Both the position numbers and the translations under genes were made by a program. Below, piece after piece: positions 1-14,358 of a stretch of 64,000 bases of DNA. Numbering within the stretch: the stretch's first letter is position 1; every line of letters begins with the position of its first letter. The notes under the pieces are model-generated. The model had not been told where the DNA came from and ran no database searches. It saw only the letters and a program-made list of their open reading frames with translations. Origin of the DNA: an uncultured Fluviicola sp. (GTDB lineage: Bacteria > Bacteroidota > Bacteroidia > Flavobacteriales_D > Crocinitomicaceae); contig NZ_CABHOL010000015.1 in NCBI RefSeq assembly GCF_902168135.1, positions 124,001 to 188,000 of the forward strand, given 5' to 3'.

Positions 1-310
1 TATTCTGGATGACCTCATCTCCAATTCTGTAAAAGCGGGAGCTACAATAGTAAACATAATGATATCAAAAATCGATTCATCTTTAAGAATACTATTCTCA
101 GACAATGGTTGTGGATTAGCCTCTAAGTTTCAAGATAATGAAGAGCTTATCTTTGATTTAGGCGTTACAACGACTGATGGATCGGGTATTGGACTGAATC
201 ATGTTAGAAAAACACTAGCAAAGATGCAAGGGACTATAAATTATTCCGGAAATCACCCTCAATTAAAGGGTGCTTCTTTTGAAATATTAATTAGCAAATC
301 TTACACATAA
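1..310 (+). CDS. sensor histidine kinase, C-terminal ATPase domain (5' end outside window)
   Basis: The reading frame is open from base 2 to a TAA at 308-310, so this is the 3' end of a longer gene that starts before the window; the first in-window ATG at 59 is not its start. The visible part is an almost complete GHKL/HATPase_c domain: an N box around DDLISNSVKAGA, a G1 box DNGCG, and a G2 box GSGIGL followed by a helix. This binds ATP and would phosphorylate the kinase's own dimerisation histidine. Sensor and HisKA-like parts are not visible. The stop overlaps the next ATG (TAATG), so it is translationally coupled to the receiver-like gene. The function as a kinase is family knowledge; a role in defence is inferred from the neighbours. 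Confidence 0.85.
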   Translation, partial: ILDDLISNSVKAGATIVNIMISKIDSSLRILFSDNGCGLASKFQDNEELIFDLGVTTTDGSGIGLNHVRKTLAKMQGTINYSGNHPQLKGASFEILISKSYT

Positions 311-1017
311 TGAAAACCCTACTAATCATTGACAACGACGATCAGACTGAAGCTATAGATAAAATTAATAGCATTGCCCAAAGATTTAATCTTGGAATTA
401 ATTGTATTCAATTTAATGTCGGTTTACCTGATGGCAATGATGTGGTCAACGAACAGGGTCGAATAGACTTAAATTTAGTAATGGAAAAATTTGAGAGAGA
501 ATACTCTTCAAGAAGATTCCACATGATTGCGTTTGATTTTAAGCTTAATGAACCCGAGGAAGAAAAAAATTTTGTAGATGGTGTTTCGTTGATTAAAAGG
601 TTTAACTCTCTTCACCGATTAAAGAATTCTAAGAAAATTCTATATTCATCTGAATTAAATGAAATCGTTGAGACATACTTAAATGATTATCGGGATACAT
701 CAGATTTCGAATCGGCTTGGGGCAAGTTCAAGACTCTTATTAATCTTGAAATTGTTGATTTTTGTAAAAGAGAAGATTATGAAGAAAAGGTAGTTGAGCA
801 CATTAAGAAAGTTCATGATCAAGGAGATGATTTCTTAATTGAAGAACTTAAAGGAAACGGTGATCTTAAATTAAATGCTGCGGTTGACGTATACGAAGGA
901 TTAACACTAAATCAGATAGCAAAAAAAATAGAAGAAGATGATAACCTTTCTGAATCGTTCAAAAAGAAAATATTAGCGCTTACCATTGCACATCTCTCTC
1001 ATCTGGACAACGAATGA
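310..1017 (+). CDS. divergent receiver-domain (response-regulator-like) protein
   Basis: The N-terminal half reads as a CheY-like receiver. LLIIDNDDQ gives acidic pocket residues D8 and D10, IAFDF gives a candidate phospho-acceptor D76, DGVSLIKRF fits the helix after the acceptor loop, and ILYSSE fits the strand carrying the switch Ser/Thr. There is an insertion between strands 1 and 3, so it is a diverged receiver. Residues from about 150 to 235 are charged and helical with no DNA-binding domain that I recognise, so the output is probably protein-protein contact rather than transcription. The start overlaps the kinase stop (TAATG) and its stop overlaps the next start (ATGA). It likely relays phosphate or state from the kinase to the protease-like third protein; that step is inference. 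Confidence 0.7.
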   Translation: MKTLLIIDNDDQTEAIDKINSIAQRFNLGINCIQFNVGLPDGNDVVNEQGRIDLNLVMEKFEREYSSRRFHMIAFDFKLNEPEEEKNFVDGVSLIKRFNSLHRLKNSKKILYSSELNEIVETYLNDYRDTSDFESAWGKFKTLINLEIVDFCKREDYEEKVVEHIKKVHDQGDDFLIEELKGNGDLKLNAAVDVYEGLTLNQIAKKIEEDDNLSESFKKKILALTIAHLSHLDNE

Positions 1018-1679
1018 AATTATATATTATTTTTCCTAAGGATTCAACCACCGATTTTCTGGAAGAGATTGTAAATTATCTGGAAGATAATCTAATAACC
1101 TCCTCAATAAAGGTTTTTAGATTAAAATCCGAGGCAGATCATAGACTTATTTTGGATAATGGTCAAGCGTTGTTTTCTGAAGATTCAACTGTATTATTTA
1201 TGGGTCATGGTATGAGCTCGGCAATAAGTGGCGCATTAACTATTGATTATAATCATGGCGTTTTAATTCAAGAAACTGAACTAAGTTTATTCCAAAAGCG
1301 TAGACTCATATTATTAAGCTGTAGATCTAACGAATTCATCTTGAAATATTCTTGGGGAGCAAAGCTAAAAGGAAGTATTGGTTTTCCAAATCTTGTTACA
1401 GATGATTATGATAGATACGGTACAGAAGATCGTTGGATAAATGAAGTCACTGAACGAGATATTGAAAATTACAGAAACGACATCGTTGATGTATTAAAGT
1501 ATTCATTAGAAGACTACCTAGAGCAGAAACTTTCTTTTTTTCAGCTCTATAAAAGGATCAAACTTAGAGCTCAGAGAAAACTTATTTCATATTGTAAAAC
1601 ACTACCAAATTCAAATAGAACAGCATATTGGCATATGTTAAATGATTTAAGTCATGGAGTTGTCATTACTGGTAATTGA
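1014..1679 (+). CDS. putative caspase/CHAT-like cysteine peptidase, candidate effector
   Basis: No family name is certain. The order of elements matches the caspase-like (clan CD, CHAT) fold: a hydrophobic strand ending in His-Gly (VLFMGHG, H65), then a hydrophobic strand ending in Cys (LILLSCRS, C103), then GAKLKGSIGFP, which resembles the GA..VIG segment after the catalytic Cys in CHAT domains. H65 and C103 would be the catalytic dyad. The C-terminal 90 residues are helical and basic. At 221 residues it is a lone domain without TPRs. The start overlaps the previous stop (ATGA), and its 3' end overlaps the convergent glycosylase gene by 28 bp. Its place behind a kinase and receiver suggests a regulated protease effector. 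The alternative is a catalytically inactive caspase-fold scaffold. Confidence 0.6.
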   Translation: MKLYIIFPKDSTTDFLEEIVNYLEDNLITSSIKVFRLKSEADHRLILDNGQALFSEDSTVLFMGHGMSSAISGALTIDYNHGVLIQETELSLFQKRRLILLSCRSNEFILKYSWGAKLKGSIGFPNLVTDDYDRYGTEDRWINEVTERDIENYRNDIVDVLKYSLEDYLEQKLSFFQLYKRIKLRAQRKLISYCKTLPNSNRTAYWHMLNDLSHGVVITGN

Positions 1680-2326
1680 CTAAAAAATAAGCATTGTTTT
1701 TTTAGTAAGCAGATCTCGCACAACGGTTTCCTAGCCTTACAAATCAAAGCTGCAAAATCCAATATTCCCCAATTAATTTCTTTCGAAAATTCAGTATCAG
1801 CAATTTTATACGCCAAATCTTGTAGATAGGGATCATAACGTATATCAGCCATTTTTCGTTCACCAAAATAACGTTCTAACACGCGCGCCATATTTACATC
1901 CAAAAGCGGGCTTCGCTTTTCAAAGATCAATAACTCGATAGCATTCGCAATGTATTGTCCCAAGAAAGGTATTTCATCTAATGAAGACCGATCTTTTGGG
2001 AGAATTCCATTCCGTTTGACCATTTCAACCGCTAATGCATACAATCTTTTGGATCGTTGCTGGTACAATCCAATAGGTTTTAAATAATCTCCAATTCGTT
2101 CAGGACCCGCATCAACAAGTGAATGCCAACTTGGGAACTTTAACAAAAAACCATCATAATATTTTGAAATGGTTTCTGCTTTGGTTCGTTGCAAAAGAAC
2201 CTCTGCTATAATCAATTTGTATTTGGAGAGTCCTGGCTTTCTCCAAGGAAAAATTCGTCCATTAACTAGGTACCAACCTAAAAGCTGTTCTTGAAAATAT
2301 GCAATATTCGATTCTTCCTGTCGCAT
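1652..2326 (-). CDS. MIG/MutY-type HhH-GPD mismatch DNA glycosylase with 4Fe-4S cluster
   Basis: This is a base-excision glycosylase of the endonuclease III superfamily. An E42-containing helix (AEVLLQRT), a helix-hairpin-helix PFLGQYIANAI and the catalytic Asp LLDVN (D143) are visible. A C-terminal cluster motif C196-x6-C203-x2-C206-x5-C212 closes it. The lyase Lys of endonuclease III is Tyr here (Y125), 18 residues before the Asp. This matches the Tyr/Asp pair of the T:G mismatch glycosylase MIG, which is also about 220 residues long, and the NUDIX-like domain of full MutY is absent. MIG-type enzymes usually accompany m5C DNA methyltransferases and repair deaminated methylcytosine, so a methyltransferase gene may lie nearby, outside the window. 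The alternative is a short MutY-like adenine glycosylase. Confidence 0.8.
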   Translation of the reverse strand: MRQEESNIAYFQEQLLGWYLVNGRIFPWRKPGLSKYKLIIAEVLLQRTKAETISKYYDGFLLKFPSWHSLVDAGPERIGDYLKPIGLYQQRSKRLYALAVEMVKRNGILPKDRSSLDEIPFLGQYIANAIELLIFEKRSPLLDVNMARVLERYFGERKMADIRYDPYLQDLAYKIADTEFSKEINWGILDFAALICKARKPLCEICLLKKQCLFFSQLPVMTTP

Positions 2327-2924: not shown

Positions 2925-5900
2925 TTATTCCACAATTTCCCCCAGCCGCTCAAATGCCTGGTCCATATTCATCACGTTGCTGTAAATCAGGCGCAGTTTG
3001 TCGTTTTTCTCACTCATCTTGCAGTCCTTCGGGTTGCTTTGAACGTACTTCAGGACTTGCGTGAAAATCGGCGACTCGTAGTATTTGCTCTGCGGATTGG
3101 ACACAAAATAACCGATCATGGAGCCTTGTTTGATTACGAGTTTCTCGAAGCCGATTTCCTGAGCCAGCCAGCGCAGTTCGAAGGAACGAAGTAACTCTTT
3201 CACTACTCTTGGCAGCGGACCGAAGCGGTCGATCAATTGCTGCTTGTAATTTTCAATCTCTTCTTTGGTTTCGAGGTTGTCGAGGTCCTGGTAAATGCTC
3301 AGACGCTCGGATACGTTGTTGATGTAATCTTCGGTAATGCGCAGCTCGAAATCGGTCTCCAGGACGCAGTCTTTCACGAAGTGCGCGCCCATTGTTTCGG
3401 TGTTGCGGTCGTCGTAGAGGTCTTTGAATTCTTCCTCTTTCAGTTCGTCCATGGCTTCGTTGAGGATCTTTTGGTACATCTCGAAACCGATCTCGGAAAT
3501 GAATCCGCTCTGCTCACCACCCAACAGGTTTCCGGCTCCGCGGATATCCAGATCTTTCATCGCAATGTTGAAACCGGAACCCAAATCGGAGAACTGGACC
3601 AAAGCTTCCAGGCGTTTGCGCGCTTCGGAAGTCAACAAACTGATCGGTTGTGAAATAAGGTAACAGAATCCTTTTTTGTTGGATCGGCCCACGCGTCCGC
3701 GCAGCTGGTGCAGATCACTCAACCCGAAGTTGTGTGCGTCGTTAATGATGATCGTGTTCGCGTTCGAGATATCAATCCCCGATTCAATGATCGTTGTGGC
3801 CAGCAAAACGTCGTATTCGCCCTGGATGAAATCCATCATGATCTTTTCGAGCTGTTTCCCCTCCATTTGTCCGTGACCGATTGCCACCCGGACTCCCGGA
3901 CACAAGCGCGAGATCATTCCGGCCATTTCCTTGATATTCGCCAGGCGGTTGTGCACAAAATAAACCTGTCCGCCGCGGCTTACTTCATAGGAAATAGCAT
4001 CCCGGATCGATTCTTCGTTAAACGTAATGACTTCCGTTAGAACCGGCTGACGGTTTGGCGGCGGTGTATTGATGATACTCAAATCGCGGGCACCCATGAG
4101 TGAGAATTGCAGCGTTCTCGGGATCGGCGTTGCTGTGAGTGTCAGTGTATCGACCGTTGTTTTCAGGGTTTTCAATTTGTCTTTTACAGCTACTCCGAAC
4201 TTTTGCTCTTCATCGATAATGATCAATCCAAGATCCTTAAATTTCACCTTATCGCTGACAATTTTATGTGTTCCCACCAAAATATCGATCTCACCGCTTG
4301 CCACTTTTTTCAGGGTAGCCGTGATTTCCTTCGCAGATTTGAAGCGGTTGATGTAATCCACATTTGCCGGAAAATTCTTCAGGCGTTCCGCAAAAGAGCG
4401 CGCATGCTGATGACTCAGGATCGTGGTGGGAACCAGAATAGCTACCTGCTTGCTGTCGGCCACTGCTTTGAATGCCGCACGAATAGCTACTTCTGTTTTT
4501 CCGAAACCAACATCCCCGCAAACCAACCGGTCCATCGGCATGGGTTTTTCCATGTCCTCTTTTACGGCCTGCGTTGCTTTCAACTGATCCGGAGTGTCTT
4601 CATACATAAACGAAGCTTCCAGCTCATTTTGCAGGTAAGTATCGGGAGAAAACGCAAATCCGGGTTGACTTTTGCGCTTTGCGTACAATTGGATTAAGTC
4701 GAAAGCCAATTCCTTGATACGCTTCTTAGTCTTTTGTTTCAGCGTTGCCCAGGCCTGCGTTCCCAGTTTATTCATTTTCGGAGCAGCTCCGTCTTTTCCG
4801 GTAAATTTCGAAATGCGGTGCAAGGAGTGAATACTCACATAGAGCACATCGCCGTCTTTGTAAACCAAACGAATGGCTTCCTGCGGTTTTCCGTTCACAT
4901 CAATGGTTTGCAGCCCGGAAAACTGTCCCACTCCGTGATCGATGTGCGTCACATAATCGCCTTTCTGCAGGTTATAGATTTCCTTTAAAGTCAGCGCCTG
5001 CTTTGCCTGGCGGAAACCTTCCTTCAGTTTGAAACGGTGGTAACGCTCAAAGATCTGGTGGTCGGTATAACAAACCAGCTTCAGCGAAGGCAGAATAAAT
5101 CCTTCGTGCAAAGCAATATTCATAGGCTCAAATTCCACTTCTGCGCCAATATCTTCGAAAATCTGGTACAAGCGTTCGATCTGTTTCGGCTGATTGGAAA
5201 AGATCAGGTTTTCTGCTCCTGCTTTTTTACGGGCAATCAGGTCATCTTTCAACAGGTCAAAATCCTTGTTGAATGTGGGTTGATGAAGCGTTTCGAATTG
5301 AATGACTTCCGAAGCTTTGAATGCATATTCCGGTCCGATCTCCACAATAGCATGCACCGGAAGGCGCTCTTTCCAGTCGGAAGGATGCATGTACAATTCG
5401 CTCGGTAAACTGTGTTTGATCGTGTCTTTCGGAAGTGAGTCGTAAACGGTTACGGCCTTTTCGTAATCCTTTTCCAGAGCCGCTTTTACCAGGTCGTTGG
5501 ATGCCAGCCAAATGGTCGTTTGTTTCCCGATGAACTCCAGGAAAGTCCCGGTTCCGTTCAGAACCAACTGGCGCTGCACATTCGGAACCACCGAAAAATG
5601 TGTGTGTGTTCCGACCGACAACTGGGAAACCGGGTCAAAAGTCCGGATCGAATCCACCTCATCTCCGAAGAATTCAACCCGGAAAGGCTGGTCATTCGAA
5701 AAAGAGAAAATATCGACAATTCCTCCGCGGATGGAGAACTGTCCGGGCTCATACACAAAATCCACACGTTCAAATCCGTATTCCAGGAGAAATTCATTGA
5801 AGAAATCAATGGAATAGCTTTTCCCGCGTTCCACACGCATGGTGTTTTCGGAAAGTTTCTTCTGAGTCGGTACGCGTTCGAACAAAGCCTGCGGATAAGT

Positions 5901-6266
5901 AACTACCCACGTGTTCTTCCCGGTATTGATCTTTTCCAGTACTTCGGCACGCGCCACCACGTTGGCATTGTCTGTTTCCTCCAATTGATAAGGCGTGCGG
6001 TAAGAAGCCGGGTAAAAGTAAATGTGCTTATTGTCCGGGTACAATTGTTCCAGGTCGTTGAGAAAGTAAGCCGCCGTTTCTTTGTCTTCCAGGATGAATA
6101 AATGATTTCCCGGAACCTGCTCGCAAACAGAAGCTGCCGCAATGGATTTGGAAGAACCGATCAGTCCTTTCCAGTGAATACGAATTTCTGCCTGCTGCAA
6201 TAAATCAGCTGTTTGATCGAGTCCTTTGAGTTTTTTGAATCGTTGTAAAAATTGTGCCTGGTCCAT
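2925..6266 (-). CDS. mfd: transcription-repair coupling factor Mfd
   Basis: Mfd is an ATP-driven translocase that removes stalled RNA polymerase from damaged DNA and recruits UvrA. Visible parts in order are a UvrB-like N-terminal region (to about residue 340), an RNAP-interaction CarD-like domain beginning GDYVTHIDHGVGQF (about 435), helicase Walker A GDVGFGKTE (about 585), a DEEQ box (about 684), helicase motifs including QLRGRVGRS, and a C-terminal TRCF domain. The 1113-residue length is normal for the phylum. I chose the ATG at 6266; the frame extends nine codons to a GTG at 6293, but the protein then begins less typically. A 30 bp perfect palindrome lies upstream. Confidence 0.96.
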   Translation of the reverse strand: MDQAQFLQRFKKLKGLDQTADLLQQAEIRIHWKGLIGSSKSIAAASVCEQVPGNHLFILEDKETAAYFLNDLEQLYPDNKHIYFYPASYRTPYQLEETDNANVVARAEVLEKINTGKNTWVVTYPQALFERVPTQKKLSENTMRVERGKSYSIDFFNEFLLEYGFERVDFVYEPGQFSIRGGIVDIFSFSNDQPFRVEFFGDEVDSIRTFDPVSQLSVGTHTHFSVVPNVQRQLVLNGTGTFLEFIGKQTTIWLASNDLVKAALEKDYEKAVTVYDSLPKDTIKHSLPSELYMHPSDWKERLPVHAIVEIGPEYAFKASEVIQFETLHQPTFNKDFDLLKDDLIARKKAGAENLIFSNQPKQIERLYQIFEDIGAEVEFEPMNIALHEGFILPSLKLVCYTDHQIFERYHRFKLKEGFRQAKQALTLKEIYNLQKGDYVTHIDHGVGQFSGLQTIDVNGKPQEAIRLVYKDGDVLYVSIHSLHRISKFTGKDGAAPKMNKLGTQAWATLKQKTKKRIKELAFDLIQLYAKRKSQPGFAFSPDTYLQNELEASFMYEDTPDQLKATQAVKEDMEKPMPMDRLVCGDVGFGKTEVAIRAAFKAVADSKQVAILVPTTILSHQHARSFAERLKNFPANVDYINRFKSAKEITATLKKVASGEIDILVGTHKIVSDKVKFKDLGLIIIDEEQKFGVAVKDKLKTLKTTVDTLTLTATPIPRTLQFSLMGARDLSIINTPPPNRQPVLTEVITFNEESIRDAISYEVSRGGQVYFVHNRLANIKEMAGMISRLCPGVRVAIGHGQMEGKQLEKIMMDFIQGEYDVLLATTIIESGIDISNANTIIINDAHNFGLSDLHQLRGRVGRSNKKGFCYLISQPISLLTSEARKRLEALVQFSDLGSGFNIAMKDLDIRGAGNLLGGEQSGFISEIGFEMYQKILNEAMDELKEEEFKDLYDDRNTETMGAHFVKDCVLETDFELRITEDYINNVSERLSIYQDLDNLETKEEIENYKQQLIDRFGPLPRVVKELLRSFELRWLAQEIGFEKLVIKQGSMIGYFVSNPQSKYYESPIFTQVLKYVQSNPKDCKMSEKNDKLRLIYSNVMNMDQAFERLGEIVE

Positions 6267-6358
6267 ATTTTGAATAAACAGTTTAGGGGACACAGCGCAC
6301 TGTACCCCCTTATAAAAGTTGGTACAAAGTTCGTGAATTTTTCCTGGAATTGGTCCGT

Positions 6359-7267: not shown

Positions 7268-8812
7268 ATGAAAGCAATCATTACTTCACTTCTAATCCTG
7301 GGATCGGGCGGAGCTTTATTCGGACAAGGCTCGCTGACTGTCACATCCTCCAATGATAACGTTAAATTCTCCGTTTCGAATAATGGAATGTTCTTCAGCA
7401 ACCCAACAATCAACGGCGGATACTTTGTGCCAAAAGACAGTTTGGTAAGTTCTATCTATTCCATGGCATTTATGGCTACCGGAACAGATGTCAACGGAAA
7501 TCTCAAAGGCGCAGTTTCTCAATTCATGTATTCGGATTTTTCTCCGGGACCGTATTTGCCGAATGCCGTCAACTACAATGCTCAATCTTACCTGGATAAA
7601 TACCAATCCTCTATATGGATGATTAACAAAGCACAAATTGACGAACACAAAGCTCATTGGATGGATCCCGGTTATGTGGTTCCGCCGTTTATTGCCTCCT
7701 GGCCTGGAAATGGAAACACCGGTAACGGCGAAAGTCCGCTTCTTGCTCCATTCCGTGATTTGGACGGAGACCACATTTATGAACCTGAAAGCGGAGATTA
7801 TCCGTTGATTCGCGGAGACAGAGCTATTTATACCATTATCAATGATGGAAAAGGCGCACATCCTTCTGGGTTGGACCAGGCAGGAATAGAAGTGCATATG
7901 ATGTTCTACCAATACAACGATTCTACTGATGCTGCTTTAACGAATACCGTTTTCTTCCAAACAACCGTTTTCAATCGTGGAACAAACTTTATGAATGATT
8001 TCCATGTGGGTCATTTGGCTGATTTCGATCTGGGCAATCCATACGATGATTATATCGGAACAGAACCGGGAAGAAACCTGATCTATGTTTATAATGGTGA
8101 TCTGAACGACGAGAATTTCTCCGGAAAACCCGGTTACGGTGCATACCCCCCGGCTGCAGGAATCCTGACCCTCGACGGAAATTTAAGCTCTAATATTCAG
8201 ATTACAAATGCGTCCGGTTTCAACACCCCTTCGAAATACCATAACGCCTTAAATGGTCTTTTACCGGATGGAAGTCCGTTGCTCGACGGGAACAATCAGC
8301 CAACCACTTATATTTACAACGATATTGATCCGACTATAGGATGGAACGAGTTTGCCGGTATTCCCAATCCTCCCGGAGACCGCAGAACAGTTGCCGCGCA
8401 CGACGGAGTTGTTTTTGGTCCGGGAAAGATTCTTTGTTATAACAATGCGGCCATTTTTGCCAGAAGTTACGAAGGAAACTTAACTTCGAGTGTAGACAGT
8501 TTGTTCCATGTTGCCAACCACATTCAGCACTTCTACAACGAACAGAATTTCTATTGTGAAACACAGTTCCTGGGATTACAGGAAGAAGAAAAGCTGACCT
8601 TTTCCATTTACCCGAATCCTGCCAAAGAACAAATTCACATCGAAGGATTGACGGTTGGAACATACCGCATCATCAATCCGGAAGGAAAAGAGGTTCTTGC
8701 CGGAAACTTCGAAAATACGATCATTCAAATTGATTCACTGAAGAACGGTTTTTACATTCTGGAAATTACTGCCGGAGGAAAATACGACCGGAAACCTTTT
8801 GTGAAAGAATAA
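7268..8812 (+). CDS. secreted protein with T9SS type A sorting domain
   Basis: A 514-residue exported protein. The signal peptide (MKAIITSLLILGSGGALFGQ) ends near residue 20. The middle is rich in Asn, Gly and Tyr and contains DLDGDHIYEPESGDYP, a calcium-binding-like acidic run; I do not recognise its family. The C-terminal 80 residues beginning SIYPNPAKEQIHIEGL and ending with a basic FVKE match T9SS sorting domains, which direct export across the outer membrane and are removed or used for attachment. It stands alone, with terminators on both sides. Its role is probably surface adhesion or binding, without specific evidence. Confidence 0.75.
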   Translation: MKAIITSLLILGSGGALFGQGSLTVTSSNDNVKFSVSNNGMFFSNPTINGGYFVPKDSLVSSIYSMAFMATGTDVNGNLKGAVSQFMYSDFSPGPYLPNAVNYNAQSYLDKYQSSIWMINKAQIDEHKAHWMDPGYVVPPFIASWPGNGNTGNGESPLLAPFRDLDGDHIYEPESGDYPLIRGDRAIYTIINDGKGAHPSGLDQAGIEVHMMFYQYNDSTDAALTNTVFFQTTVFNRGTNFMNDFHVGHLADFDLGNPYDDYIGTEPGRNLIYVYNGDLNDENFSGKPGYGAYPPAAGILTLDGNLSSNIQITNASGFNTPSKYHNALNGLLPDGSPLLDGNNQPTTYIYNDIDPTIGWNEFAGIPNPPGDRRTVAAHDGVVFGPGKILCYNNAAIFARSYEGNLTSSVDSLFHVANHIQHFYNEQNFYCETQFLGLQEEEKLTFSIYPNPAKEQIHIEGLTVGTYRIINPEGKEVLAGNFENTIIQIDSLKNGFYILEITAGGKYDRKPFVKE

Positions 8813-8837
8813 GATCCCGAAAATTCTTTTTCTGCTC

Positions 8838-8873
8838 AAAACCCTTTCTCGGCTGAGCCGAGAGGGGTTTTTT
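8838..8873 (+). terminator. rho-independent terminator
   Basis: A strong hairpin has arms AAAACCCTTTCTCGGCT (8838-8854) and AGCCGAGAGGGGTTTT (8856-8871), with one bulge, ending in six T. It lies 26 bp after the T9SS cargo gene. Confidence 0.9.
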
Positions 8874-9007
8874 CGTTTTGTCGAAACTTTTTTGAAAAAA
8901 TCAATCATTTGGAATGAACCTTTGATGACCGGCTGAGTAATCCTTTTAGAAACCAAGAGGTCAAGCGCGCTACGCTTACGCCATAGCTCTTGCCTTTGTG
9001 AAGCCAT

Positions 9008-9099
9008 TGTGCCTTCGCTGACCGCATGTCGCCAAAGCTTTAGCGGCGGCACAAGCTACAGCATAAGCGTTTTGGCAAAGCAAGGTCAGCGCAGGCGCA
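9008..9099. repeat. imperfect inverted repeat in the 8813-9119 gap
   Basis: The arms TGTGCCTTCGCTGACC (9008-9023) and GGTCAGCGCAGGCGCA (9084-9099) pair at 14 of 16 positions. Between them lies a smaller inverted repeat around GCCAAAGCTTTAGCGGC. The whole 8900-9105 stretch is richer in GCGC-type words than the flanking intergenic DNA and has no convincing ORF. It looks like a structured intergenic repeat rather than a gene. The T-run after 9099 is just before the next start, so it is not an ordinary terminator. Confidence 0.45.
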
Positions 9100-9119
9100 G
9101 ATTTTTTTAATTTAAGAAC

Positions 9120-11027
9120 ATGAAACACTTATTTATCGGACTTACTTTTTTAACCTGTTTCAATTCCTTTGCTCAGAAAGACGGAGACCAAAAACCGGAA
9201 ACGGTTTACAGTATCGTGAAAGAAGAACGAGCATTAAAATGGTACGAAGACCAGCTAAGACTTTGGAAAGCAGAAGTAGATAAAAGTCCAAAGAACGGAA
9301 CTGCCTGGACAAATTATTATGCTTCGGCAAGAGCGCTTCGAAACACCAATCCGCACGGATCAGAAGAGCGAAAAAAATACACCGAACTCTGTGCACAAAT
9401 CGCGGGGGAAGTTCAAAAAGCCATGCCGAATACTTTTGAGGGCTATTTCATCCCTTTCATAGAAAACGAAGGGGCATGGGGAAACCCGGAAGGACTTTTA
9501 AAAGCTGCCGCGATCAACCCGGACGATCCGAGACTGTTGGACGAAATGCTGATTCATTATGCGATGGAACGCAACCAGCAGCAATTTGATGTGTACGGCC
9601 AGAAAATGTTCAATACCAACGAACTGCCCGTGGGATTGCTCAACTGGGGATACAATGTAGTCTCCGAACTGGACGAAAACGCAATCTTATTTACCATCGG
9701 AGACAATGACACATACGCTGCATGGATTATGCAGGCGGCTAAAAAAATGAGACGGGACATTACAGTTGTCAATACTTCACTCATTGAACTGGAAGGTTAC
9801 AGAAACCGGCTCCTGAAAGAACTTGGATATCCTCCATTAACAGTGAAAGAGCCTGAATCCGACGAAGAATACCTGCAAAAGAAGAAGCAAATATATGCGC
9901 ACTTTTTCCAGGGTAAAAGACCGGTTTATGTGGCAACAACGGCTATCAGCTTATTTGAAAAAGACTTTGGTGATAAATTGTACCTTACCGGTTTGGCATA
10001 CAAATACAGTGACTCCAATTTTGACAACACAGCAGTCATTCGCAGGAATTATGAAAAACGGTATTTGCTGGATTACCTGAAAGAAGTTTTTTCCTATAAC
10101 ATCGGGGATCTGAAAGCACAGGAATTCAATGGAATGTATGTTCCTTCCATGATCAAATTGTACAAGCATTATTCGGAAACAGAAGAAACCCTGAAAAAGC
10201 AGGAACTGGAACTATTGCTGCTGAAAGTGTCTGAACAAAGCGGACAGCAAAGTGAGGTTTTTGAACTCCTTTCCGAACAAAATAAGCCGGTTTCCATTCT
10301 TTCAGCGGTGCTTGATTTGAAAACCCTGGAAAAAAACATGATCCCTGTTAACGGAAACATCTATATGGACAAGTATGAAGTAACGAACGGAGATTACAGC
10401 AAATTCCTGAATAATCTGAAAATTTCCGGTCAAACCGACTTGTACCAATCTGCTCTGTATGATTCTACCCAATGGATCAAGGACAAATACGCCGTCAGTT
10501 TCAATGATCCAATGATGAATTTATACCATTGGCATCCGGCTTATCAAGATTATCCTGCCGTTTGCATTTCATACGAAGGAGCAAAAGCATACTGTGAATG
10601 GTTAACCAAACAATACAATTTGCAGCGCAAAAGAACATTTACACAGGTTGTCTTTCGCTTGCCAACAGAGCAAGAATGGAGAACTGCAGCTGGTTCCGGA
10701 GATTCGAAAGCCATTACTCCGTTCCCAAACAATGAAATCAAGGAACCCGATGGGAAACATTACCGCGGAAACATACGCACCTCGAAAGAGCGCTTTTTTG
10801 ATGACGGTGGTTTTCACCAGGTAAAAGTATCCAGTTATCTGCCCAACAAGCTCGGACTTTACAATACTCTCGGAAATGTTTCCGAAATGATCAGCACCAG
10901 GGGAAAAGCAATCGGAGGATCCTGGTACGACTTGTTTGAAGATTGTACTTTTGATAAAACACAAACGTATTCAAACCCGGACCCTGCAGTCGGCTTTCGA
11001 GTTGTGATGGAAATAATAGAAAAGTGA
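9120..11027 (+). CDS. exported protein with formylglycine-generating-enzyme-like (SUMF1) domain
   Basis: 635 residues with a signal peptide ending near FNSFAQ. Around residues 183-215, NAILFTIGDNDTYAAW followed by ITVVNTSL resembles the C-terminal soluble part of DUF2723/GT117 membrane proteins. From about 405 to the end lies a SUMF1/FGE-like fold: GNIYMDKYEVTNGDY, YPAVCISYEGAKAYCEWL, FRLPTEQEW, LGLYNTLGNVSEM, GGSWYD, VGFRVV. The pair of catalytic Cys of true FGEs is not present after GGSW, so it probably does not make formylglycine and acts as a structural or binding module, as in GldJ/GldK. It lies 17 bp before an ECF sigma gene, so the three genes from 9120 to 12259 are probably one operon. 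Confidence 0.75.
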   Translation: MKHLFIGLTFLTCFNSFAQKDGDQKPETVYSIVKEERALKWYEDQLRLWKAEVDKSPKNGTAWTNYYASARALRNTNPHGSEERKKYTELCAQIAGEVQKAMPNTFEGYFIPFIENEGAWGNPEGLLKAAAINPDDPRLLDEMLIHYAMERNQQQFDVYGQKMFNTNELPVGLLNWGYNVVSELDENAILFTIGDNDTYAAWIMQAAKKMRRDITVVNTSLIELEGYRNRLLKELGYPPLTVKEPESDEEYLQKKKQIYAHFFQGKRPVYVATTAISLFEKDFGDKLYLTGLAYKYSDSNFDNTAVIRRNYEKRYLLDYLKEVFSYNIGDLKAQEFNGMYVPSMIKLYKHYSETEETLKKQELELLLLKVSEQSGQQSEVFELLSEQNKPVSILSAVLDLKTLEKNMIPVNGNIYMDKYEVTNGDYSKFLNNLKISGQTDLYQSALYDSTQWIKDKYAVSFNDPMMNLYHWHPAYQDYPAVCISYEGAKAYCEWLTKQYNLQRKRTFTQVVFRLPTEQEWRTAAGSGDSKAITPFPNNEIKEPDGKHYRGNIRTSKERFFDDGGFHQVKVSSYLPNKLGLYNTLGNVSEMISTRGKAIGGSWYDLFEDCTFDKTQTYSNPDPAVGFRVVMEIIEK

Positions 11028-12264: not shown

Positions 12265-12939
12265 TCACTTTTTAGCTTCGGAAATTCGTTCCAAAATTTG
12301 CTTTTGTAACAGATCATTGAATACCATTAAATCCGTCAGAAAAGTATGATAGTAATTGTTTTTTATCGTGTTATCCAACATGATTTTTTCCATGAATCTT
12401 TCTCGCAATTTTGAACGGATAAACGGATAGTGGTTTGCATAAACTTTTAAAAGCAACCTGTTCTCACAATCATTTATCAGACAATACTCAAAAATGCGGT
12501 TTTGATACCGGTTGTTTAATCTATTGAAGTTACTTCCATAATGAATGAGCACACTTTCGTGGACAGTTTTATTGATTTTTATTTTTTGAGGACCAAGATA
12601 CATGAATAACAAATCAATTGCTTCAGGACGGTTTTCCATGAAAAGAATCCAGTTCGGAAAAATGACCCTCGGAAGCAATGGATGTAACTTCTTATTCGTC
12701 AAAATCAGATCATAAACCTTAAATAGAGCTGTATTTCCAAGTTTGTATTTTTGATTTGAAACAAGTTTTATTGCAAGTGCAAGATATTGGATACCAACAA
12801 ATTTCTCCGCATATTCCAAAAAAACAAAAATCTCCTGTTGATCCTCTTCCGTTAACTTGTCTCCTTTGAATGAGTTTTTTAGCCTTCGAAAATGTTCTGC
12901 AGCCTCTTGAGCAATGTAATATTCCTGATTATTTATCAT
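12265..12939 (-). CDS. hypothetical helical protein
   Basis: 224 residues, not recognised. It is rich in Lys, Asn, Ile and aromatic residues, has no signal peptide or clear membrane segment, and seems all-helical, with alternating hydrophobic and charged stretches as in HEAT-like repeats. Its DNA is more AT-rich than its neighbours, which may mean a different origin. It converges on the anti-sigma-like gene with only 5 bp between stops. The 37 bp before its start hold a short hairpin (ATCCGC/GCGGAT near 12950). Confidence 0.6.
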   Translation of the reverse strand: MINNQEYYIAQEAAEHFRRLKNSFKGDKLTEEDQQEIFVFLEYAEKFVGIQYLALAIKLVSNQKYKLGNTALFKVYDLILTNKKLHPLLPRVIFPNWILFMENRPEAIDLLFMYLGPQKIKINKTVHESVLIHYGSNFNRLNNRYQNRIFEYCLINDCENRLLLKVYANHYPFIRSKLRERFMEKIMLDNTIKNNYYHTFLTDLMVFNDLLQKQILERISEAKK

Positions 12940-12976
12940 AGGGTCGTAATCCGCGGCGGCGGATGCTAAATTACAT

Positions 12977-13342
12977 CTAATCTAATTCGTTTGAGTCATT
13001 TTTTCCAGGAATTCCCCTGGCAAACAATTGCTGTCCATAAAATACAAACAACAAAATCAATCCGCTTCCAAAGAAGATCAGTGCCAACGGGCGTGTTCCG
13101 TCATCAAAGAAAAATTCACCGATCATCCAGGTCGAATTTGCCAGGATCCAAAGGATTACCGCCAGGTTATGCATCAATTCGGAATAGGAGCTGCGCATTT
13201 TCCAGGTTAGCCAAAAAGCGACGGCAAGTGTTGGCAGGATCATAATCGTTCCCGGCCATTTCAGATCAGCTGCCCAGCAAATATCCTTGAGCAGCCAAAG
13301 CAAAATATGAAGGTTTTCTATTTTCCGGAAATCGAGGAACAT
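12977..13342 (-). CDS. small integral membrane protein
   Basis: 121 residues with about four hydrophobic segments (IENLHILLWLLKDICW, GTIMILPTLAVAFWLTW, NLAVILWILANSTWMIGEF, LALIFFGSGLILLFVFYG) and a charged tail. No family is recognised with confidence. It overlaps the end of fbp as TAATG, so it is translated after fbp from the same message. A metabolic link to fbp is not implied by anything in the protein. Confidence 0.7.
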   Translation of the reverse strand: MFLDFRKIENLHILLWLLKDICWAADLKWPGTIMILPTLAVAFWLTWKMRSSYSELMHNLAVILWILANSTWMIGEFFFDDGTRPLALIFFGSGLILLFVFYGQQLFARGIPGKNDSNELD

Positions 13343-14358
13343 TATGCCTTGGCACGTGCTGTTTCCAGGCAGTTAATCGCCTTTTCCATCATTTGTTTGG
13401 AACCTGTAAAGAATCCGCAGCGCTGATGTAATTGGTGCGGTTCCAAATCCAAAATGCGTTCTGTACCGTTGGTTGCCATTCCGCCTGCTTGTTCGGCAAC
13501 AAAAGCCAATGGGTTGCACTCGTAAAGCAAGCGCAGTTTTCCTTTCGGGCTTTGGTTCGTTACCGGGTAAATGTAAATTCCCCCTTTAATGAGGTTTCTG
13601 TGAAAATCTGCTACCAAAGAGCCGATGTACCTTCCGGAATAAGGTCTTCCGTCAGCCTTAACTTCCTGGCAAAACGAAATGTAATCTTTTACTCCCTGTT
13701 CACATTCGTGAATGTTTCCTTCGTTCATGGCATAAATACGGCCCGTTTCCGGCATGCGCATATTCGGATGCGACAAACAGAATTCACCGATGGAAGGGTC
13801 GAGTGTAAATCCATTTACCCCGTGTCCGGTTGTATAAACCAACATGGTTGAAGAACCGTACAGAACGTAACCGGCAGCAACCTGCTGTGTTCCTTTTTGC
13901 AGCATATCTTCCAGGGTTGCAGGAGTACCTTTCGGAGAAATGCGTTTGTAAACTGAGAAAATCGTTCCTATCGAAACATTGCAGTCGATATTGGAAGAAC
14001 CGTCCAAAGGATCAAACAGCACAATGTATTTTCCACTTTGAGCGCGTTCGGATGTAAAGGCTAAAAAGTCGTCATTTTCTTCAGAAGCAATTCCACAGAT
14101 CTCACCACTTGATTCAAACACTTTGATAAACTGGTTATCTGCAACCACATCCAGTTTTTGCTGTTCTTCACCCTGGATATTCATATCTCCCTGGGCACCA
14201 AGGATATGATCTACCAATCCGGCTCTACGAACATCTCTTGCCACAATTTTTGATGCAATTGAAATATCGTTCAAAATGCGGGACAATTCCCCGGATGAGC
14301 CCGGAAATTCCGCCTGTCGTTCCATAATAAAATCGCTCAATGTGATGATGTGTGACAT
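13342..14358 (-). CDS. fbp: class I fructose-1,6-bisphosphatase
   Basis: Removes the 1-phosphate of fructose 1,6-bisphosphate in gluconeogenesis. The metal-binding core [20 protein letters not shown] is intact, as are the active-site stretches [20 protein letters not shown] and [20 protein letters not shown]. With the ATG at 14358 ([10 protein letters not shown]) the protein has 338 residues, the usual length. The frame extends 15 codons to a GTG at 14403, which I regard as upstream read-through. It is followed by the membrane protein gene with a TAATG overlap. Confidence 0.96.

Follow-up and report, generated by a model that had tools for sequence, protein, structure and literature searches.

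What does a kinase-receiver pair act upon when the receiver has no output domain of its own? The question is raised by the left end of a 64,000-nucleotide stretch from an uncultured Fluviicola sp. (G000:C15:124001-188000, hereafter the window), where the end of a kinase gene is followed by a receiver-like gene and by a gene for a small protein with a His-Gly...Cys arrangement, which we call CASP. An earlier note, made from the letters alone, had taken these three genes for a cassette, and its three frames and their overlaps (TAATG, ATGA) were borne out by a check of the open reading frames (ORFs). Window positions 1-1679 are the right end of a larger island, which starts about 4.5 kb left of the window, and the bulk of the system lies outside the window on that side. 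We propose that CASP, a protein very probably of caspase fold, is part of a signalling defence derived from restriction-modification (R-M), in which a paraMORC-type kinase would sense DNA and a His-Asp relay would trigger the protease instead of, or besides, a nuclease; this scheme has in our judgement about an even chance of being right.

A survey of gene order, which the earlier note had suggested as a check, finds kinase, receiver and CASP in the same order at 11 loci (the window's own, L006, L021, L022, L023, L025 and L199-L203), located in Bacteroidota genomes and on plasmid CP031730, labelled Stenotrophomonas rhizophila (L006). This is a count of neighbourhoods fetched: nine of the ten further loci were retrieved via CASP and only L006 via the kinase, and 10 weaker CASP matches of profile A4, in the family with 14/151 genomes, were left out. 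Where alignments were made, the cassette proteins are 16-45% identical to the window copies. A C5 DNA methylase stands in front of the kinase in 10/10 loci with that side sequenced (L199 ends inside the kinase), and because of this we consider the system R-M-linked, so that the notion of a stand-alone trio is given up. At its other end the L202 locus stops inside CASP.

The spread of CASP is sporadic. A single-protein search met it in 3/395 genomes of the phylum and profile A1 in 8/395 genomes of the class, namely four cassettes and four solo CASP genes (G397, G438, G449, G602), the latter without a match to methylase, kinase or receiver in the DNA retrieved around them. Profile A4 gave 2/36, 14/151, 2/249 and 1/148 genomes in four families (query genomes counted), and a genome-contig scan gave a single locus, L029, which is G088 again. 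Searching with the kinase first re-found the window's own genome, G088, G230 and G308. In G088 a methylase-kinase cassette with a receiver occurs twice, with CASP in L022 and without it in L060.

Extended leftward, as the note had also advised, the kinase gene was recovered whole: it begins 2144 bases outside the window (at G000:C15:121857) and encodes 817 residues. A HATPase_c domain at residues 712-812 (Pfam, E 9.1e-16) upholds the predicted GHKL ATPase, but a plain histidine kinase it is not, since a second GHKL module, HATPase_c_3, lies at residues 25-151 (Pfam, E 3.3e-25), outside the window. Judged by its domains, the protein is a paraMORC-type dual-GHKL histidine kinase. A putative phospho-accepting histidine, His606, stands in a LIHNVK-like box before the C-terminal ATPase, likewise outside the window, and its column holds His in 11/11 cassettes, also in L021, where the kinase is split, and in L199, where it is truncated (pieces unjoined). 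Both sets of GHKL motifs (N, G1 and G2 boxes) are present by inspection in the nine full-length kinases. The N-terminal module also aligns with BbrUII/HgiDII (NF050001; E 2.7e-15), with a score of 56 bits that falls below the cut-off of 550, and in contrast to those enzymes the C-terminal part here is a histidine-kinase ATPase. The kinase of G308 (L021:10413-12913) is split into two ORFs of 561 and 265 residues, and because of the split this copy of the cassette may be broken.

The receiver carries Asp8 (codon 331-333), Asp76 at the phospho-acceptor position (codon 535-537) and Tyr112-Ser113, all of them invariant in 11/11 cassettes. The window protein itself has no match to a receiver family in Pfam; its L023 homologue matches Response_reg (PF00072) at E 0.0027, below the family cut-off, and a profile from six homologues finds CheY at E 0.0066. 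No output domain, DNA-binding or other, was found in it, which agrees with the diverged receiver described in the earlier note. The residues of a phosphorelay, a conserved His, a conserved Asp and intact-looking ATP sites, are present, and phosphotransfer itself is a prediction. Neither kinase nor receiver of the window matches PF19191 or PF19192 at E up to 1, and these families are also unmatched by the kinases of L006, L022 and L023 and the receivers of L006, L022, L023 and L025. Because the window proteins miss both families yet share the architecture, they seem to form a divergent branch of the HEF_HK/Response_reg_2 kind.

In CASP the putative catalytic residues are His65 (codon 1206-1208) and Cys103 (codon 1320-1322), and the C-terminal part is helical. 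His65-Gly is invariant in 11/11 cassettes and Cys103 in the 10/10 that are readable there (L202 ends before the Cys); across a 40-row alignment that includes phage relatives, only F15, H65, G66 and C103 are invariant. Structure and profile searches, which the note had called for, brought caspases to or near the top, none of them below E 0.001. An AlphaFold2 model of the window protein (33 sequences; pLDDT 73.1, pTM 0.72) has strand 59-64 leading into His65 and strand 97-102 into Cys103, so that, as in C14 caspases (caspase-1 and -4 in the PDB), His and Cys directly follow two core strands. With this model Foldseek placed caspase-4 second of 1228 matches (E 2.6e-3, prob 1.00), caspase-1 and legumain further down, and several viral caspases in BFVD. 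The phage relative in L009 was modelled separately, from viral-contig sequences only (pLDDT 96.4), and here caspase-4 came first (E 1.6e-3, prob 0.99). The 40-row profile run against the PDB gave caspase-1 in all of its top 13 rows (E 0.02-0.049), with SbcD-type exonucleases next (E 0.065); the sole printed alignment sets caspase Ser-His-Gly on the GHG of CASP and the caspase Cys on C103. A phmmer match between the window CASP alone and caspase-4 (E 0.57) spans the His..Cys stretch.

Several results weigh against a caspase. Searches of Pfam, NCBIfam and PHROGs assigned CASP to no family, PADLOC offered no model that convinced, and no Foldseek match of either model was at E 0.001 or better. RcsB ranked first for the window model (E 2.1e-3, prob 0.90), flavodoxin-like and receiver folds came close behind caspase-4 for the phage model, where dehydrogenase folds also followed, and phmmer put thymidylate kinases (E 0.18) above caspase-4. 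A profile of five cassette CASPs found no caspase in the PDB, its best match being an XPD helicase (E 0.0074) in the C-terminal part. Unlike C14 caspases, the CASPs of the window and L006 (E up to 1) and of L023 and L025 (E up to 0.1) match neither CHAT nor C14 in Pfam, the E-values are weak throughout, and the activity of CASP is predicted. Among known folds, caspase is still the best supported by the models and the 40-row profile, and we think it very probable that CASP has it. The earlier note had named a CHAT/caspase-like peptidase; the conserved His-Gly...Cys holds and the caspase half of that name is the better supported. CHAT was ranked behind a C14-like caspase, because no CHAT family was matched in Pfam and the peptidases that could be recognised in the structure and profile searches are caspases.

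A protein of caspase fold might also be idle, or a non-proteolytic binding module, with the cassette serving as a regulatory two-component system. The weakness of the caspase match by E-value would suit such a role, as would the fact that no cleavage substrate for CASP is visible in the operon, which also counts against our scheme. His and Cys are nonetheless among the sole four columns to stay invariant when phage relatives are included, and we regard an idle CASP as improbable.

The phage relatives form a large family of proteins of about 177-195 residues (LIIHPKD..GHGSP..IWCNAD), homologous to CASP by profile-profile comparison (E 4.9e-17) and encoded on viral contigs (L009:8001-8549, L010-L013, L100-L179). 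In IMG/VR, 186/221 stretches with the pattern encode a relative; the best 80 of the 186 were kept, and two of these 80 lie on contigs longer than 300 kb. Nine Lak megaphage records (H24-H32) match over 48-68% of the query. Two phage members of the family reached no PHROG family, and a PHROG search found nothing for CASP and receiver. The window CASP and the L023 CASP had no match among plasmids, nor the window CASP among phages, and the L006 CASP matched its own two plasmid records only.

If CASP is the output of the relay, what occupies its place elsewhere? The N-terminal module of the kinase occurs in 60/395 genomes of the phylum (E up to 1e-10), and we tabulated 55 kinase loci, including 40 further loci from the kinase search. 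At 17 loci the gene in the receiver position encodes fewer than 250 residues, and the next gene is CASP in 11, a short HNH gene in 4 (L007, L086, L089, L090) and an MBL-fold gene in 2 (L075, L078), which covers 17/17, most of the CASP loci having been fetched for having CASP. As an HNH or MBL-fold gene fills the same slot in related cassettes, the output enzyme looks interchangeable. Behind longer receiver-position genes stand HNH_2 (L062, L065), Vsr (L076, L080, L092, L097, L098) or a glycosylase (L077), and no CASP was found in the co-directional runs of these loci (at most four genes). Representatives of the slot genes are backed by Pfam (HNH_2, HNH, Lactamase_B, HhH-GPD, Vsr). The short receiver-position genes of L075 and L007 match Response_reg weakly; those of L078 and L086 have no receiver match in Pfam, a point that tells against our scheme.

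Where the slot holds an MBL-fold gene (L075:13326-15010, L078:6284-7935), it directly follows the short receiver-position gene, and that of L078 matches the PADLOC models LmuA and RTasMBL. A second layout consists of kinase, short receiver-position gene and short HNH gene, with an Eco57I-type methylase after the HNH gene in L086, L089 and L090 and before the kinase in L007.

CASP need not replace a nuclease, because L199 has CASP and then an HNH_2 nuclease in one cassette and the window island has Mrr, and both cases speak against a simple exchange of one for the other. When the genes were examined for R-M components, the methylase was clear and the nuclease candidates were Mrr_cat in the window island and HNH_2 in L199. 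CASP could accordingly be an accessory regulator: a nuclease (Mrr here, HNH_2 in L199, a GmrSD-like protein near L201) would restrict DNA, and CASP would process the kinase, the receiver or the nuclease to switch the response. The joint presence in L199 favours this, and so does the window island, where 128 bases separate the methylase from the Mrr_cat gene before it, but no nuclease was recognised in the co-directional runs of eight CASP cassettes (L006, L021, L022, L023, L025, L200, L201, L203), whose unlabelled genes were tested against Pfam in part; three of these genes are AbiH (L200), Rce1-like (L203, Pfam) and an Mfd homologue (L022). We hold this explanation to be unlikely.

For our scheme, with CASP as the output itself, the history of the genes matters. 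A kinase tree was built from 53 loci, after removal of two of the 55 for their short matches. A single branch of 18 rows (97/94) unites all 11 CASP kinases with 7 members without CASP. The CASP label needs four changes on this tree against a mean of 10.2 after shuffling, none of 500 shuffles being as low, and the starred branches by themselves require 3 or more. The pattern fits a single gain followed by losses as well as repeated gains. The kinase, receiver and CASP trees have the starred pairs G230-G824, G778-G787 and G308-G088 in common, of which a 9-row kinase tree without the split G308 gene contains the first two only. The methylase tree instead pairs G824-G787 (98/96), and the remaining forks of these small trees are weak. 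Since three trees share pairs and the fourth differs, the signalling trio seems to travel together, and the methylase may be exchanged.

These trees also bear on a different reading, that of a modification guardian or addiction module. Here the kinase would monitor the cell's own methylation or methylase, and CASP would kill or arrest a cell whose modification has been blocked or has disappeared, for instance because the island is lost or a phage anti-restriction protein intervenes; the system would target the methylation state and not incoming DNA as such. Such a module would be well served by a methylase before the kinase in 10/10 loci and by a mobile island. It should coevolve with its methylase, yet the methylase tree joins G824-G787 against the other three, a conflict that does not count if only the mark is read. 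On balance a guardian seems rather unlikely, and we continue with the R-M-derived defence.

The island runs from an Mrr-type nuclease through C5 methylase, kinase and receiver to CASP, with a glycosylase gene converging from the right (Table 1). Neighbouring genes overlap by 14 bases (methylase and kinase), 1 base (kinase and receiver) and 4 bases (receiver and CASP). The flanking gene on the right we take, from its sequence, to be mfd (transcription-repair coupling factor).

Table 1. Genes of the island and its right flank. L002 is G000:C15:112001-130000, and an L002 position equals the window position plus 12000.
Feature	Window position	L002 position	Strand	Evidence and remarks
Mrr_cat-type nuclease		7550-8440	+	Pfam Mrr_cat, E 1.2e-7
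C5 DNA methylase		8569-9870	+	Pfam and NCBIfam, clear match
Kinase	1..310 (reading frame 2-310), C-terminal 102 residues	9857-12310	+	ORF; Pfam HATPase_c
Receiver-like protein, 235 residues	310..1017	12310-13017	+	ORF; residue conservation; CheY profile match
CASP (caspase-like), 221 residues	1014..1679	13014-13679	+	ORF; alignment; model; Foldseek; profile
HhH-GPD glycosylase, MIG-type	1652..2326	13652-14326	-	Pfam; overlaps CASP end
mfd	2925..6293		-	Conserved right flank, outside island; 98% protein identity in G659

Both the AT-richness and the accessory-island character claimed in the earlier note are substantiated. The methylase-kinase-receiver-CASP genes have a GC content of 0.32; in the 5-kb flanks it is 0.40 on the left and 0.45 on the right. 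In G659, a genome of the same genus whose Mfd is 98% identical, a BLASTN alignment of 5.3 kb covers the left flank (84% DNA identity), additional pieces align as far as L002 7320, and mfd aligns at 85% over 3.1 kb; despite these conserved flanks, L002 7321-14921 has no BLASTN alignment in G659, where frames of 795 and 217 codons are found instead. The site is thus variable and occupied otherwise in G659. The island appears mobile and accessory, and plausibly has a defence role. Defence-type genes lie near three of the cassettes, AbiH in L200, GmrSD_N in L201 and SIR2_2 in L006. A housekeeping operon, or a chance gene order with no part in conflict, would be highly improbable: we found no support for it, and the absence of the cassette from this site in G659, the sporadic spread of CASP and its solo relatives, and the defence-type neighbours all oppose it. 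For the window's genus, a fixed site of the cassette is opposed both by G659 and by the 12 genomes of the genus in which the island's glycosylase has no close match.

The cassette of L006 (CP031730, 261380-274612) lies in a low-GC stretch (0.29) of the plasmid, where its neighbours are a gene annotated as TnsA and genes for SIR2 and SIR2_2; its receiver and CASP are missing from the gene table of the record. It may have been carried by a Tn7-type element. Like the window island, the L022 cassette adjoins mfd (window 2925-6293, L022:10400-13813), and the two Mfd proteins are 56% identical over 1120 residues. We did not adopt mfd as an insertion hotspot, as the two cassettes lie at opposite ends of mfd and may do so by coincidence.

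Our scheme for the defence builds on the gene set, the conserved residues, the partly matching trees and the variable site, and from these we infer the sensing, the relay, the activation of CASP, its substrate and the arrest. Self DNA would carry the 5-methylcytosine set by the methylase. Unmodified DNA, or DNA foreign in some other way, would be recognised by the paraMORC GHKL module at the N-terminus, working as an ATP-driven clamp or sensor, and engagement of this module would turn on the C-terminal histidine-kinase core, leading to autophosphorylation of His606 and transfer of the phosphoryl group to Asp76 of the receiver. The phosphorylated receiver would then activate CASP, which would cleave host (or phage) proteins and so stop the infected cell. 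The Mrr-type nuclease encoded upstream may act as a further effector. Besides the missing substrate and the retrieval of most loci through CASP, it counts against this scheme that its defence, sensing and proteolysis steps are predictions.

The glycosylase beside CASP, an HhH-GPD neighbour already seen in the earlier note, likely repairs T:G mismatches from 5-methylcytosine deaminated after methylation, which would be the job of Vsr beside related cassettes. The Tyr in its FLGQY motif is at the position that we take to mark MIG-type enzymes. A housekeeping MutY was rejected, because the same genome has a separate 333-codon MutY-like frame, 29% identical to the island enzyme, and 12 genomes of the genus gave no match above 32% identity; two additional, weaker glycosylase matches lie elsewhere in the window's own genome. 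The gene is island-specific. A place in the core cassette was not supported, as it stands beside the window copy only among the 11 CASP cassettes. A homologue directly follows the long receiver-position gene in the co-directional run of methylase, kinase, receiver-position gene and glycosylase of the non-CASP locus L077 (6971-12391), and for that reason the glycosylase looks like a recurrent accessory, as Vsr does.

How much of this system is new? In Detocs (DtcA/B/C), a kinase-to-receiver relay controls an output enzyme, and no methylase or paraMORC module is known there. The cassette shares that logic only, as the earlier note had remarked, and differs in its methylase, its paraMORC module and its separate caspase-like output; PADLOC returned no Detocs-named match for the window kinase, receiver or CASP, though its library was not checked for Dtc models. 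Closer kin are the HEF_HK kinases and Response_reg_2 receivers found near R-M genes, chiefly C5 methylases (Bellieny-Rabelo 2021, PMC8011034). As far as that study's account of these elements goes, they too combine HATPase_c_3, a DHp-like His and HATPase_c with an adjacent diverged receiver and a C5 methylase, and have Vsr or HNH genes nearby, as do the related cassettes here; Vsr genes are most often directly downstream of the receiver. Unlike them, the window receiver is followed by CASP and the window proteins leave PF19191/PF19192 unmatched. The words caspase, peptidase, protease, CHAT and glycosylase are absent from the main text of PMC8011034.

The N-terminal GHKL module and the operons with cytosine methylases recall the paraMORC R-M families (Iyer 2008, PMC2292703), some of which, in that paper's descriptions, carry nuclease or TIR extensions, whereas here a histidine-kinase core is fused and receiver and CASP are separate. 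VcSduA, a Shedu I-D protein of paraMORC3 type, ties the GHKL module experimentally to phage defence (PMC12137116), and because it is a tested defence protein, a sensing role of the module is plausible; as presented there, its output is a fused PD-(D/E)xK nuclease in a single protein without a phosphorelay. A caspase-like gene with a kinase-receiver-methylase set was not found described in the open-licence PMC literature (preprints aside), and PMC7159879, PMC8195603, PMC7641849 and PMC7824862, in the portions relevant here, describe other systems. On these sources, the kinase-receiver-methylase core is of a kind described in 2021 (PMC8011034) and CASP is the new part.

The receivers of the elements described in 2021 have, as portrayed in PMC8011034, no other known domain. 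A separate caspase-like gene offers a concrete, testable output for them and would link restriction-modification to a cell shutdown executed by a protease. Tentatively, and with somewhat less than even confidence, we see here an R-M lineage with a phosphorelay-controlled caspase as its restriction arm, for which the stand-alone phage relatives could be decoys or captured effectors. The seemingly interchangeable slot, with caspase-like, HNH or MBL-fold genes, suggests a modular immune architecture. The cassette also allows tests of how paraMORC ATPases read DNA modification, and of whether DNA sensing can lie upstream of bacterial caspase relatives. An R-M lineage of this sort, if real, would be a bacterial link from discrimination between self and non-self DNA to caspase-type execution.

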